A stretch of 58,283 nt of DNA from Marinobacterium rhizophilum DSM 18822. Lineage in GTDB: Bacteria; Pseudomonadota; Gammaproteobacteria; Pseudomonadales; Balneatricaceae. This document shows, one piece after another, positions 14,865-47,177 of the stretch. Position 1 is the stretch's first letter, and each line of letters starts with the position of its first letter. The position numbers and the translations under genes are program-made. The stretch lies in contig NZ_KB899119.1 in the NCBI RefSeq assembly GCF_000378045.1, forward strand, positions 1 to 58,283, written 5' to 3'. The notes beneath the pieces are model-generated. The model saw only the letters and a list, made by a program, of their open reading frames with translations. It was not told where the DNA came from and searched no databases.

Positions 14865-15365
14865 TTACACCGCCGCCTTGTTATCGGCAGACGTTTTTTC
14901 ACCCGTGCTCATAATCAGCTGTTCCACATAGCGACGATCCTGCCGCTTGGCAACCTGCTGTACATCCTTGCGCTGGACCAGGTCCAACAAACTGATGCCG
15001 CTCAGAAACGCATGAATCTGGTTACTCAGGTCGCACCACAGATGATGAGTCAGGCATGTTTGGCCTGACTGACAGTCACCACTGCCATGACAACCCGTGG
15101 CATCGACGGATTCATTTACCGCATCGATCACTTCGGCCACGTTAATATTCACCTGATCGCGGCTCAGCTGATAACCACCGCCCGGCCCGCGTACACTGCG
15201 AACCAGCTCACTGCGCCGGAGCTTGGCAAAAAGCTGCTCCAGGTATGACAGCGATATACCCTGACGCTCGGAAATGTCAGCCAGACTGATCGGCCCCTTT
15301 CCTGCATGCAACGCCAAATCCAGCATCGCTGTAACTGCATAACGGCCTTTGGTGGTCAATCGCAT
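14865..15365 (-). CDS. iscR: Fe-S sensing regulator IscR
   Basis: Rrf2-family regulator that binds a [2Fe-2S] cluster and represses its own operon when clusters are sufficient. The start is the ATG of [11 protein letters not shown], as in other IscR proteins. Cluster ligands C92, C98, C104 and H107 are all present. The winged-helix region is residues 1-65. A matching IscR box lies upstream. 166 residues. Confidence 0.95.
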
Positions 15366-41902: not shown

Positions 41903-43261
41903 TTAAAGTCCGTAGCGCTCTATTTTCTTCAGCAATCCCTGGCGAGACAACCCCAGCGTGGCCGCCGCATGGGTGCGGTTATCATCATGACGGTGCAGCG
42001 CATCACGAATCAGCCGAATCTCGAGCGCCCGTACCTGCTCATCCAGCGGCGCATCCGAGGCCGGTATCGATGCGCCCGCCTGCTGTACACCGGGGTGCAG
42101 CAGCGCCACATCGTCCAGTGTCACCCGCCCGCCGCGGCTCAGCGCACAAATGCTTTCCAGCGTATTACGCAGCTCCCGCACATTGCCTGGCCAGGATCTG
42201 CGCATCAGCCAGTCGAGCACCGCCGGATCAAGCAGCAGCTGCGCAGCACCGCTATCGCTGGCCTGCTGCTGCAGGAAAGACCGCACCAGCAGCGGCACAT
42301 CCTCGGCACGCTCGTTCAGCGGCCGGGTTTCGATGGTGACCCCCTTGATACGGTAATACAGGTCTTCGCGAAACTCGCCCCGTGATACCCTGTCGGGCAG
42401 GTTGGCATTGGTAGCCGAAATCACCCGCACATTGATCTGCTGCAGTACGCGCCCGCCCACCGGGTAAAAGGTCCCCTCCTGCAGCACACGCAGCAGCTTG
42501 ACCTGCATGGGGAGCGGCATCTCGCCAATCTCATCCAGGAACAGCGAACCGCCATCGGCCAGTTTCAGCAAGCCATCGCGGTCACGGTCCGCGCCGGTAA
42601 AGGCTCCGCGCACATGGCCAAACAGTTCGCTTTCGAGCAGGTCCGCCGGAATGGCTCCGCAGTGCACCGATATGAAGGGGCCGCTGGCGCGCAGACTCAG
42701 ATCATGCAGTGCCCGCGAGATGACCTCCTTGCCGGTACCCGAGGGCCCGGTCACCAGTACCCTTGCATCGGTAGGTGCAATGCGCTCCACCAGCGCTCGA
42801 ATCGCGGTCATCGACGGCGAACTGCCGATCAGCCGAGCCAGCGGCGTCGCCTTGCGCGGAGCCTGCTTGAGCTGCTGTAACTCGCGACTGAGCTGGTGTT
42901 TGGTCACCGCCCTTTTGACCACCACCGCCAGCATCTCGGGGTCCAGCGGCTTGGCGAGGAAATCCCAGGCGCCTTGCTGGATCGCCTCCAGCGCCAGCGT
43001 CCTGTCGGCATGACCGGTCATGATGATCACCGGCCGGTCGGCAAATTCCGGCAAGGCCGCCAGTGTGTGGGCCGGATCAAACTGCGGCGGCAATGACAGA
43101 TCCAGCAGCAGCAGGTCCGGGTCGAAGGACCGCAGCAGGGTACGGGCATCATCCAGGCTCGCGCCTCCGCGCACCTCGTATCCGCCATTGCTTAGCCACT
43201 GTTCGCACAGCGAACGAAATGCAGGCTCGTCATCAATCAGCAGGATGCGAGGTTTGTTCAT
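41903..43261 (-). CDS. sigma-54-dependent response regulator
   Basis: NtrC-type activator, 452 residues. Receiver domain (1-120) with DD at 10-11 and phosphoacceptor D54; AAA+ domain (about 142-370) with Walker A GPSGTGKE, the sigma-54 contact GAFTGA and LFLDEIGEMP; C-terminal Fis-type HTH (AATLGLSRQGLLKKIERYGL). The cognate kinase is upstream, and a -24/-12 promoter stands before the cyd operon 2.3 kb away, which makes that operon a likely target. Ribosome site CGGAG. Confidence 0.93.
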   Translation of the reverse strand: MNKPRILLIDDEPAFRSLCEQWLSNGGYEVRGGASLDDARTLLRSFDPDLLLLDLSLPPQFDPAHTLAALPEFADRPVIIMTGHADRTLALEAIQQGAWDFLAKPLDPEMLAVVVKRAVTKHQLSRELQQLKQAPRKATPLARLIGSSPSMTAIRALVERIAPTDARVLVTGPSGTGKEVISRALHDLSLRASGPFISVHCGAIPADLLESELFGHVRGAFTGADRDRDGLLKLADGGSLFLDEIGEMPLPMQVKLLRVLQEGTFYPVGGRVLQQINVRVISATNANLPDRVSRGEFREDLYYRIKGVTIETRPLNERAEDVPLLVRSFLQQQASDSGAAQLLLDPAVLDWLMRRSWPGNVRELRNTLESICALSRGGRVTLDDVALLHPGVQQAGASIPASDAPLDEQVRALEIRLIRDALHRHDDNRTHAAATLGLSRQGLLKKIERYGL

Positions 43262-43292
43262 GGCCAGCTCCGGTTAAATGACAGTAGGGTAT

Positions 43293-43442
43293 TCATGCCT
43301 TGGCATCCTCTGGAAAACTCAGCTCAAACGTCACCGGCCAACCCAGGTCTTCACGCAGACTGACCGCTCCGCGCCAAGTACGGCCGTCCATGCTCCGGCA
43401 CACTTGAGCCGGCGCGCTGCAACCAAACAGAATCTTCTTCAT
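43293..43442 (-). CDS. mini-ORF 1, copy of kinase C-terminal tail
   Basis: 49 residues, ATG overlapping the previous mini-ORF by ATGA. Its second half (residues 28-44) includes SLREDLGWPVTFELSFP, almost identical to the end of the adjacent kinase. The N-terminal half (MKKILFGCSAPAQVCRSMDG) resembles mini-ORF 2. It ends 31 bases before the response-regulator start. Whether it is translated is unknown. Confidence 0.55.
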   Translation of the reverse strand: MKKILFGCSAPAQVCRSMDGRTWRGAVSLREDLGWPVTFELSFPEDAKA

Positions 43443-43675
43443 GCTTCAGGCGCCTTGGGAAAACTCAGCTCAAACGTCACCGGCCAACCCAGGTCTTCAC
43501 GCAGACTGACCGCTGCGCGCCGAGTATGGCCGTCCATGCTCCGGCACCCTTGAGCCAACACGGTGTTACCCAGCGCGCGGCTACCGAACAGCATCGTCTT
43601 CATGCTTCAGATGCCCTGGGAAAACTCAGCTCAAACGTCACCGGCCAACCCAGATCTTCACGCAGACGGACCGCT
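43312..43675. repeat. three tandem copies of the kinase 3' end
   Basis: A 57-base core occurs at 43312-43368, 43458-43514 and, within the kinase gene, 43619-43675. The two outside copies are identical in the core and differ from the kinase at two bases. Spacing is 146 and 161 bases. The outside copies also share flanking sequence absent from the kinase. Confidence 0.9.
43439..43603 (-). CDS. mini-ORF 2, copy of kinase C-terminal tail
   Basis: 54 residues. The ATG overlaps the kinase stop by ATGA, the usual sign of translational coupling. Residues 33-49 include SLREDLGWPVTFELSFP like the kinase end; residues 1-30 (MKTMLFGSRALGNTVLAQG, CRSMDGH) are partly alike to mini-ORF 1. It could be a slippage relic or a real small peptide. 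Confidence 0.55.
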   Translation of the reverse strand: MKTMLFGSRALGNTVLAQGCRSMDGHTRRAAVSLREDLGWPVTFELSFPKAPEA

Positions 43676-45477
43676 CCCCCGTGCGCGTCCATGATGCGAC
43701 GTACGATGGCCAACCCCAGGCCGCTGCCGCCGGCACGCCGACTGACAAAGGGATGAAACAGGGTCGCATGCAGCGACGCATCAATGGCTGGCCCGTTATT
43801 GTGAATGCGAATGCAGCGGCCATCGGCATCACTGTCGATGCGGATCAGGCTGCCCGGCTGGTTGCGCACGAAGCTCAGGGCATTTTCGACCAGGTTAGTG
43901 AACACCTGCTGCAAACGATGCTGATCGGCCAACAGCGTCAGCCCGGCCGGGATATCGCTTTCAAAACGGGTCTGCTGCCAGTCGAACAGCGGCACCAGGC
44001 TGTCCACCATGCTCGGCAGCAACACCGGCTGCAGACGCAGCTCCAGGCGGCCCGCATAGAGCAGCAGGTCCGAGATCTGGCGGTCGGCACGCTGCAACTG
44101 GGTCTGAATCAGGCTGCGCCGCTCACCCGGCAGATCCGCCGTGGCCATGGATATTACATTGAGCGGATTGCGCAGTTCATGGGCCATGATGGCCGACAGG
44201 CTGCCCAGTTCCACCAAATGCTCGCTGGCCAGGCGACTGCGTTCAGCCTCCGCCAATTGCAGGGAACGCTCCAGCAGCCCGCAACTGGTCGACAGCAGGG
44301 AGCCAAACACCTCACCGGTCAGGCGCAGACCAGGCTTGAGGTCCTCCCAGCCCTGCAGGCGAAAACGCCAGCCCCGCGCCTGATGCTGGCACAGAATACT
44401 CAGCCCGCCCTCGCTGGGCGGCGGTACCATGGCACCCTCTTGCTGCAGCTGGATATGAACGCTCTGGCGCATCTGGGCCGAGATCAGCTCGGTTGCGCGG
44501 GCCTGCAGTCCCTGCCAGCTGCCCTCGGACTTGAGCCGGCTCTGCCAGCGATCCAGCAGGGACTCATCGAGCCGCACACCCGGGTAAATCAGCAAGCCTG
44601 AGAGCGTTTTCAGCGGTCCGCGCAACAGCAGCGCAACGGCCACCGCCATGAGCGCACAGAGCCAAAGCTGCCAGAGCGGCACGGCGGCAAGCTCTACCAA
44701 GCCAAAGTGCCCGGCCAGAGCGCTCAGCAATGCCATGACCCCCAGCATGACCGCCATCAGCACCAGCCAGGGCAGCATACGCCGGGCGAAGTCGTTGGAC
44801 TCCAGGATCTGGTAGCGCACCACGCCATAGACCAGCAGGACCACGTAGCTTGGCAGCAGCAGCATGGGATAGGGATACCAGTCGAACCCGAGTGACGGAA
44901 AGATAAAGCTCGTGGCCAGCAGCAACCCCCAGGCACTGGCGGCAAACATCGCAACAATGGAACGACGCAGGTTGCCGTGGTGCACGCTGAGCCCCCACAC
45001 CAGCACCAGATGCGCCAGAATGCCGACAATCACCGTATAGGCAATGTTGAACCAGCCCAGTCCCTGAAAGACGAAAAAGTCGGTAAAGGGCCCCAGTGGC
45101 ACGACAGTTCCGCCGGGGCCGTTCCAGCTCAGCAGAATAACCCCGAAACTGGCCGCGTAGATGGCGCCGATATGCAGGCTGAACCAGTGCAGCAGCCTGG
45201 GTACACCCGGCCCGCGTGGACGCACGAAGCGGGTGGCAAAGTGAAGGAAGAAAGTCGGCATCAGCGGATTGGACAGGATCAGCAGAATGCCGAGATCATG
45301 CCAACCTTGCTGGATGGCAACATGACCGCTGCACCAGAGTGCCATCATCAGCCCGAAGCCCGCCAGCGCCTGCAGACTGCGCCGCTTGCGTGCCCGCAGC
45401 AGCAACCAGCCAGACACCACAAGGGCACAGCCACTGGTGACCAGCATCATCAGTTCAAACGCAATTACCCAGCTCAT
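43600..45477 (-). CDS. multi-pass membrane histidine kinase
   Basis: 625 residues. About nine membrane helices in residues 5-290, a linker region, then HisKA with H433 (IMAHELRNPLN), an N box (NLVENALSF), and G boxes (GSGLGLAIVRRIMDAHGG). Partner of the downstream sigma-54 regulator. It is divergent from the cyd operon with 184 bases between them. The membrane sensor suggests a signal such as quinone or respiratory state, which is inference. Confidence 0.92.
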   Translation of the reverse strand: MSWVIAFELMMLVTSGCALVVSGWLLLRARKRRSLQALAGFGLMMALWCSGHVAIQQGWHDLGILLILSNPLMPTFFLHFATRFVRPRGPGVPRLLHWFSLHIGAIYAASFGVILLSWNGPGGTVVPLGPFTDFFVFQGLGWFNIAYTVIVGILAHLVLVWGLSVHHGNLRRSIVAMFAASAWGLLLATSFIFPSLGFDWYPYPMLLLPSYVVLLVYGVVRYQILESNDFARRMLPWLVLMAVMLGVMALLSALAGHFGLVELAAVPLWQLWLCALMAVAVALLLRGPLKTLSGLLIYPGVRLDESLLDRWQSRLKSEGSWQGLQARATELISAQMRQSVHIQLQQEGAMVPPPSEGGLSILCQHQARGWRFRLQGWEDLKPGLRLTGEVFGSLLSTSCGLLERSLQLAEAERSRLASEHLVELGSLSAIMAHELRNPLNVISMATADLPGERRSLIQTQLQRADRQISDLLLYAGRLELRLQPVLLPSMVDSLVPLFDWQQTRFESDIPAGLTLLADQHRLQQVFTNLVENALSFVRNQPGSLIRIDSDADGRCIRIHNNGPAIDASLHATLFHPFVSRRAGGSGLGLAIVRRIMDAHGGAVRLREDLGWPVTFELSFPRASEA

Positions 45478-45661: not shown

Positions 45662-45781
45662 ATGAGCCTGTCCGCCCTGATGACCGAATTCCTGATGTTG
45701 GCCACCATCCTTGGCATCGCCTGCGCACCCGCACTGATGCAGCACCTGCGCACGCGCACAGGACGCCGCCATGGAGCTTGA
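45662..45781 (+). CDS. 39-residue single-helix leader ORF of cyd operon
   Basis: ATG with GGAG 8 bases upstream. One hydrophobic helix (about residues 6-27, MTEFLMLATILGIACAPALM is close to it) then a basic tail (RTRTGRRHGA). Its stop overlaps the cydA start by 11 bases, so cydA translation may depend on it. Small bd-oxidase subunits (CydX, CydS) normally lie downstream of cydB; this one is upstream and not recognisably related. Confidence 0.65.
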   Translation: MSLSALMTEFLMLATILGIACAPALMQHLRTRTGRRHGA

Positions 45782-47177
45782 TGCCGCCCTCCTGTCGCGG
45801 CTGCAGTTCGCGTTCACCGTCAGCTTTCACATCCTGTTCCCGTCCGTGACCATTGGTCTGGCGACGTTTATCGCCGTCTGGGAAGGGCTCTGGCTGAAAA
45901 CCCGCAATCCGGTCTATCTGCAACTGGCCAAGTTCTGGATCAAACCCTTTGCCATTACTTTCGGCATGGGTGTGGTCTCGGGGATCGTGCTGTCCTATGA
46001 GTTCGGCACCAACTTCTCGGAATTCTCCCGCATCACCGGTGCGGTACTGGGCCCGCTGATGGCCTACGAAGTGCTCACCGCCTTCTTCCTTGAGGCCGGT
46101 TTTCTGGGCGTCATGCTGTTTGGCTGGCAACGGGTCAGCGAACGCATGCACTTCTTCTCCACCTGCGTGGTGGCGCTGGGCACCTGGATCTCGGCCTTCT
46201 GGATCATCGTCGCCAACTCCTGGATGCAGACACCGGCAGGCTATGAAATCGTCGATGGCGTGTTTCAGGTTGCCAGCTGGCCGGAAGTGATCTTCAACCC
46301 GTCCATGCCCTACCGCCTGGCGCACATGTTGCTGGCAGCACTGATTACCGGCACCTTTGTGGTGGCCGGTGTCTGCGCCTACTACCTGCTGCGGCGCAAA
46401 TACCAGCCCATGGCCCGCAAGGGCTTTTCCATGGCGCTCTGGTTTGCCCTGGTGCTGACGCCGCTGCAGGCCTTTGTCGGCGATCTGCACGGCCTGAACG
46501 TGAAGGAACACCAGCCCATCAAGCTGGCGGCCATGGAGGGTATCTGGCCCGAGACCGAAACCGGCGCACCGCTGCTGCTGTTTGCACTGCCCAGCAAAGA
46601 GGACGAGACCAATCACTTTGAGATCGCCATACCCCACCTCGCCAGCCTGATACTGACCCACGAACTGGAAGGCGAACTGCAGGGGCTCAAGTCCGTGCCG
46701 CCGGAAGATCGACCTCCCGTCGCCGTGGTGTTCTTCAGTTTTCGTATCATGGTGGGCCTGGGTGTGCTGATGATTGCCGTGGCGCTGTACGGCCTCTGGC
46801 TGCGTCGCGGCGGCCGGCTTTACAGCTCGCCCCTGCTGCTGCGCGTCTGCACCCTGCTCACCCCCGCCGGCGTGGTGGCGACGGTCGCCGGCTGGTACGT
46901 GGTGGAAGTCGGCCGCCAGCCCTGGCTGGTCAACGGCCTGGTGCGCACGATGGACGTGGTATCTCCGCTGCCGGCGGAACGGGTGCTCTTTTCCCTGACG
47001 ATGTTTGTCATCACCTACAGCCTGCTGCTGGCCGTGTATCTGTATTTCATGCGCAAGCTTATCCGCAAGGGGCCGCCCGACTTTGCCTCCCTGCCGGAAC
47101 AGCTGATCGGTACCCATGCACCGGGCTATGCCCTGGCCTGGGTGAAACAGCTTGATGCTCACGAGAAGGTGCACTGA
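45771..47177 (+). CDS. cydA: cytochrome bd-type quinol oxidase subunit I (CioA-like)
   Basis: Haem-bearing subunit of an oxygen-reducing quinol oxidase. N-terminal SRLQFAFTVSFHILFPS holds the haem b595 axial His; GWQRVSERMHFFSTCVVALG and KLAAMEG are conserved. At 468 residues with a short quinol loop it belongs to the cyanide-insensitive (Cio) group rather than the long-loop E. coli CydA. Overlaps the leader ORF and cydB. Confidence 0.94.
   Translation: MELDAALLSRLQFAFTVSFHILFPSVTIGLATFIAVWEGLWLKTRNPVYLQLAKFWIKPFAITFGMGVVSGIVLSYEFGTNFSEFSRITGAVLGPLMAYEVLTAFFLEAGFLGVMLFGWQRVSERMHFFSTCVVALGTWISAFWIIVANSWMQTPAGYEIVDGVFQVASWPEVIFNPSMPYRLAHMLLAALITGTFVVAGVCAYYLLRRKYQPMARKGFSMALWFALVLTPLQAFVGDLHGLNVKEHQPIKLAAMEGIWPETETGAPLLLFALPSKEDETNHFEIAIPHLASLILTHELEGELQGLKSVPPEDRPPVAVVFFSFRIMVGLGVLMIAVALYGLWLRRGGRLYSSPLLLRVCTLLTPAGVVATVAGWYVVEVGRQPWLVNGLVRTMDVVSPLPAERVLFSLTMFVITYSLLLAVYLYFMRKLIRKGPPDFASLPEQLIGTHAPGYALAWVKQLDAHEKVH

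Follow-up and report, generated by a model that had tools for sequence, protein, structure and literature searches.

Partial tandem duplication of genes between short repeats generally leaves copies of a gene end that are arranged head-to-tail, with diverged fronts and with a copy number that varies among relatives. The kinase–regulator locus of Marinobacterium rhizophilum analyzed here resembles this general picture in each of these respects, but it departs from it in that the copied tails are near-identical while the heads are almost unrecognisable, and in that all copies are open and linked by ATGA overlaps. The locus can also be compared to the HATPase_c domain (PF02518), since the tails of the mini-ORFs described below correspond to the C-terminal end of this domain; unlike the domain itself, however, the mini-ORFs hold only about its last 20 residues, and no ATP-binding domain is recognised in them.

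Another related system is the translational coupling of neighbouring genes. The review PMC12548453 names NTGA as the commonest spacing motif in coupled genes, places the best coupling at spacings of −4 to +3 nt with a 3- to 10-fold decrease towards +40 nt, and states that untranslated RNA invites Rho polarity. Each ATGA junction of our locus shows the −4 spacing described there, and the untranslated stretch between the kinase stop and the regulator start, which measures 338 nt without the mini-ORFs, would shrink to 31 nt provided that these are translated. In contrast to ordinary coupled genes, the linking ORFs here hold fragments of the upstream gene that have no known use, and their coupling is predicted from the sequence.

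Layout of the locus and reality of the repeat

The window, i.e. the whole stretch of 58,283 nt that was analyzed, corresponds to contig C31 of the M. rhizophilum draft genome (5.36 Mb in 58 contigs). On its minus strand, a histidine kinase gene is followed by mini-ORF 1, mini-ORF 2, a spacer of 31 nt and the gene of a response regulator, and a further gene lies divergently to the kinase:

43600–45477, minus strand: histidine kinase gene (625 aa; HisKA and HATPase_c domains), with its own last 66 nt (tail) at 43600–43665
43439–43603, minus strand: mini-ORF 1 (54 aa), start overlapping the kinase stop as ATGA
43505–43603, minus strand: diverged head of mini-ORF 1 (99 nt)
43439–43504, minus strand: kinase-tail copy of mini-ORF 1 (66 nt)
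43293–43442, minus strand: mini-ORF 2 (49 aa), start overlapping the mini-ORF 1 stop as ATGA
43359–43442, minus strand: diverged head of mini-ORF 2 (84 nt)
43293–43358, minus strand: kinase-tail copy of mini-ORF 2 (66 nt)
43262–43292, minus strand: spacer between mini-ORF 2 and regulator (31 nt), containing GGAG, with 6 nt between GGAG and the regulator ATG
41903–43261, minus strand: NtrC-type response regulator gene (452 aa; receiver, sigma-54 activator and Fis-type HTH domains)
45771–47177, plus strand: divergent neighbour, which from its sequence we take to be a CydA-like protein gene

A sequence-only reading of this DNA had described the end of the kinase gene as present three times in tandem, and both repeat searches as well as a shuffle test bear this out. 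Tandem Repeats Finder returned one array (43312–43677, period 161, 2.4 copies, score 507), and a second repeat search recovered three copies with a spacing of 146 and 161 nt and with 84% and 64% to the reference copy. Alignment of the last 110 nt of the kinase gene to the next 500 nt gave a score of 121, the maximum of 100 shuffles being 24. When repeated gene ends were ranked for 832 stop-to-stop ORFs with a minimum length of 150 codons, taken in six frames from the window and from a further 400 kb of this genome and in many cases not genes, the kinase held rank 1 with a score of 127, followed by scores of 98 (three rows from one place beside masked Ns), 54 and 34. The extra kinase 3′ ends between kinase and regulator are a real repeat, beyond chance, and as adjacent head-to-tail copies of a gene end they have the arrangement by which a partial tandem duplication is defined.

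A second gene end that is repeated nearby was observed elsewhere in this genome, on contig C1 at about 174.4–175.0 kb (L098:14400–15000). There, the last 54 nt of a 198-codon ORF, stop included, are found again about 213 nt further downstream with an identity of about 80%; the copy forms the end of a short ATG-started ORF (14877–14984, 35 aa) that is not ATGA-linked, and GGTGGGTTAG/TAACCCACC repeats are located between the ORF end and its copy. On contig C4 (L106:8600–9300), a repeated stretch of 59 nt lies beside a masked run of Ns.

The coordinates further confirm that the frames of both mini-ORFs are intact and that each is begun by an ATGA at the preceding stop. NTGA start/stop overlaps are present at the kinase/mini-ORF 1 and mini-ORF 1/mini-ORF 2 junctions, while mini-ORF 2 and the regulator are separated by the 31-nt gap instead. 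Both mini-ORFs end in LREDLGWPVTFELSFP followed by five residues. In the kinase, PF02518 matches residues 518–621, and the tail is the C-terminal end of the domain; neither mini-ORF gives a match in a Pfam search. The earlier assignment of the peptides to the final strand of the ATPase domain fits the tails, which represent about the last 20 residues of HATPase_c.

We also looked for signals of other kinds at 43100–43900. An RNA element was rejected: Rfam gave no match up to E 1 in this stretch, and the fold z-scores of the units are −0.70 (calculated on 144 nt of unit 1), −1.00 and 0.28, that of the kinase end being 1.14. Likewise, a promoter or terminator between kinase and regulator was rejected, since no promoter-like site was found there and the sole terminator-like site (43763–43777; shuffle mean 0.8) lies inside the kinase.

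Tails, heads and open reading frames

Each copy comprises three zones, namely a head, a tail core of 45 nt (CTGCGT...TTTTCC) and the last 21 nt. Among the three window copies, the tail core shows 0–1 differences in 45 nt (97–100% DNA identity) and the last 21 nt show 3–9 differences. The heads, which we named h1 (mini-ORF 1), h2 (mini-ORF 2) and h6 (mini-ORF of the related locus L006, see below), have diverged further: h1 and h2 are both strongly unlike the kinase and differ from each other at 11 of 84 aligned sites in addition to a 15-nt gap, compared to 0 of 45 sites in the tail core (Fisher p 0.008). The identity of the tail cores suggests homogenisation or recent copying, and the tails may be alike through recombination between the repeats or through recent re-duplication, as the data fit both. 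Hence, the description of whole mini-ORFs as copies of the kinase end is accurate for their last ~66 nt, but not for the first 84–99 nt, in which the likeness to the kinase appears distant at most.

The heads were aligned to kinases backwards from the tail using mild gap costs, and part of the signal in these alignments sits in the few nt beside the tail core. In this analysis, h1 matches the kinase of the relative L020 over nearly the whole head with a score of 20 (shuffle maximum 12, 0/150), while h1 and h2 against the window kinase (scores 10 and 13, shuffle maxima 8 and 8) and h6 paired with the kinase of its own locus (score 13, shuffle maximum 7) align only in the 30–56 nt beside the tail. 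For nine of the 15 head–kinase pairs, no more than 1 of 150 shuffles reached the score; the six weaker pairs, for which more shuffles did so, are h1 and h2 with L004 and L007, and h6 with L004 and L020. For h2 and h6, the best alignments are confined to 30–45 nt beside the tail, including a few nt of the well-kept tract, and the head–kinase alignments require several gaps that are not divisible by three. Stricter local scoring placed the heads mostly at chance level against the kinase, and only h2 stood out (20/500, kinase end). The mini-ORF heads are thus likely to be kinase-derived, which is fairly clear for one of the three and partial for the others. An origin from the head of the regulator, to which the resemblance of MKRPAFFDE in L006 to MSKPRILLIDDE might point, is unsupported by local alignment. 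Among 24 start-anchored tests of the heads, just one good score was obtained, for h1 with the window spacer (0/200), and one fair score, for h6 with the L007 regulator (4/200), which we regard as too few to pursue such an origin; the first ~35 nt of the heads might still stem from the spacer.

The sequence-only reading had further argued that start, stop and coupling would not survive twice at random. This argument fails, because the kinase stop sits in ATGA, so that each tail copy brings its own stop and the next start along, and because an open in-frame head is obtained by chance in 14–22% of cases. In shuffles of the same dinucleotide make-up, the three known heads, all of which are open and in frame, had chances of 0.144, 0.170 and 0.218. 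The product of these values is about 0.005 for independent heads, which these are not, and the joint chance of openness is 0.03–0.04 when the window head pair is counted as one event. Hence, the evidence for selection on the openness of the heads is mild.

Relatives and age of the duplication

We examined 40 kinase loci (L004–L024 and L071–L089), several of which are double records of one genome. The kinase end was found in all of them except L089, giving 39 loci of which 11 lie inside the genus and 28 outside. Extra tails are present in three of the 39, i.e. the window, L006 and L023, and the remaining 36 show a single tail and thus the unduplicated state. The sequences of L006 and L023 agree, and both derive from the species of MAG HF-Din08. 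Comparison with relatives, which had been proposed along with the original observation, revealed differences among them: five of the seven congeneric genomes are single-tailed, as are the 28 loci outside the genus, and one other congener possesses an extra tail. The kinase stop is embedded in ATGA in each of the seven congeneric genomes. The nearest named relative of the kinase in the scan was that of Marinobacterium sedimentorum (87% identity), and a search of 390 genomes for kinase orthologues at E 1e-100 or better retrieved 26, remoter orthologues falling outside this count. With the mini-ORF 1 protein as query, 13 of 291 related genomes were matched, seven of them congeneric; four of the six non-congeneric matches (G010, G081, G121 and G163) are the kinase orthologues L071, L072, L088 and L087, which carry no extra tail, and the other two are L065 and L068. 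No report of such kinase-tail ORFs was found in a small literature search, which proves no absence.

In L006, a single mini-ORF of 44 codons lies between the two genes and is ATGA-linked to the kinase as well as to the regulator. Its stop overlaps the regulator ATG, a position that is taken by the kinase stop in L007. At the nine sites that differ between the L006 copies, the L007 kinase is matched by the mini-ORF tail at seven and by the L006 kinase tail at one, and three of the differing sites fall in one codon. In the relative L004, which has a single kinase end, the last codons agree with those of mini-ORF 2 in the window (EDAKA), and the spacer of 31 nt that follows them resembles the 31-nt spacer of the window. 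Given this L004-like end of mini-ORF 2, and with L007 as the closest match of the L006 mini-ORF tail, the downstream tail looks inherited in both species.

At L006:5780–5870, the kinase's own tail has changed from FELSFP to FELVFP and the downstream mini-ORF retains the inherited sequence. Beside the conserved strand, the C-terminal residues of the kinase are highly variable among congeners (RASEA, EDAKA, EEAAA, EEVKP, ERAMT, GVEPNPIQDPTT).

Whether the two species share one duplication is, in our estimate, evenly balanced. A single old duplication at the base of the genus would have been kept in the window and L006 species and lost elsewhere by clean deletion between the tails, with the tails homogenised to each host's kinase, a history that is compatible with decay and with micropeptides alike. 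It is favored by the heads of the two species, which match each other with a score of 27 (0/500 shuffles) while the scores to the own kinases are lower (19, 22 and 25), and by the L006 mini-ORF tail, which shows eight differences to L007 and nine to its own kinase tail. In simulations of independent decay, a score of 27 was attained in 0.2–2.2% of 3000 runs at five settings, and in 0 of 0, 1, 64, 190 and 1 of the runs with both own-kinase scores at 24 or below, although this is a simple mutation model with chosen rates in which most runs are less decayed than the real heads. The two species also occupy different parts of the genus tree: in a kinase tree calculated with the tail left out, L006 pairs with L007, and the four other congeners join the window at moderate support. 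On the other hand, one old duplication requires several losses, the stretch common to the heads of both species spans only about 25 nt, and transfer between lineages would look the same. As the likeness of the heads across species exceeds that of simulated independent decay, the duplication may be old, or transferred.

In all 14 loci examined for it (L004–L017), including those of Marinomonas and Rheinheimera, a CydA-like gene is positioned divergently upstream of the kinase, which indicates that the kinase–regulator operon is an old and conserved neighbour of it. As a guess, the kinase–regulator pair may control cytochrome bd oxidase.

Decay, a possible relay and other explanations

In our view, the locus is probably the product of a partial tandem duplication that involved the kinase 3′ end, has partly decayed and has no specific peptide function; of the two options considered in the sequence-only reading, a regulatory peptide or a decaying repeat, the latter is the better supported. 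The copied unit would have spanned the kinase sequence from roughly the conserved G2-box region up to the stop codon, the head part being less secure. The front part of each copy, freed from constraint, would then have accumulated substitutions and indels, while recombination between the repeats or recent re-duplication would have kept the tails similar. Ribosomes that finish the kinase would restart at each ATGA and in this way cross the inserted repeats. The reduction of the gap from 338 to 31 nt offers a possible reason why the frames stayed open; in L006, the equivalent values derived from offsets are a 4-nt overlap with the mini-ORF and 127 nt without it. The regulator may be coupled to translation of the mini-ORFs, which would then act as a relay, and selection for open frames would be more likely to act on such a relay than on the peptides. 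Because GGAG lies 6 nt before its start, however, the window regulator may not depend on it. Deletion is expected to remove near-identical repeats readily when they lie about 150 nt apart, and a long persistence would hence be odd for a useless repeat, which counts against a decaying duplication. Moreover, relaxed decay of an extra copy does not predict that in L006 the downstream copy and not the kinase tail agrees with L007 at seven of nine sites. We consider it rather unlikely that the relay accounts for the locus as a whole, i.e. that selection kept kinase fragments open and ATGA-linked, possibly since the base of the genus, with their tails held alike by recombination, and thereby tunes the kinase to regulator ratio.

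Functional micropeptides that contain the last strand of the ATPase domain and bind to or compete with the kinase are an improbable explanation. They would agree with the intact frames in all three copies over two species and with the ATGA links, with the 19-residue mini-ORF tail that differs from the window kinase tail at one residue, and with the L006 mini-ORF, which differs from the L007 kinase tail at 0 of 19 residues though the DNA differs at 8 of 57 nt. However, nine of the ten codons that differ between h1 and h2 change the amino acid, and the head DNA common to the window and L006 species falls partly into different reading frames, as judged from sequences compared by eye, so that the proposed competing or regulating peptide is unsupported. 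Amino-acid conservation of the heads between copies or species beyond DNA copying was looked for and not found. The tail is conserved as a peptide, but at the DNA level too, and as this identity includes synonymous sites, no selection on the peptide is required; in addition, Pfam matches neither mini-ORF, and five of the seven congeneric genomes are without mini-ORFs. Tiny integrating cassettes that target and restore the kinase 3′ end in the manner of integrative elements might explain why the inherited end is apparently the most downstream copy in both species (mini-ORF 2 resembling L004, the L006 mini-ORF resembling L007). We regard such cassettes or mobile units as very improbable, as the mini-ORF 1 head has no good match outside this locus in the seven congeneric genomes (best E 0.128), the likeness to the kinase fades gradually without a sharp edge, and units of 146–161 nt are too short for a recombinase gene. 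An assembly artefact could be suspected in a draft genome of 58 contigs, with a MAG representing the second species, but is the least credible explanation of all, since the copies differ in their heads and last codons, which identical reads joined in error would not produce, and since the second assembly (L006) shows a similar structure.

The locus is best read as an unusual-looking but true repeat, a duplication in decay with a possible role as relay and with no convincing argument for a regulatory peptide. Because the stop–start overlap travels with the copy, the duplicated end of a gene can mimic designed coupled small genes, and annotation of small ORFs should discount ATGA-linked copies of gene ends. 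If the relay proves true, the locus would provide a simple natural test of selection on kinase–regulator coupling itself.
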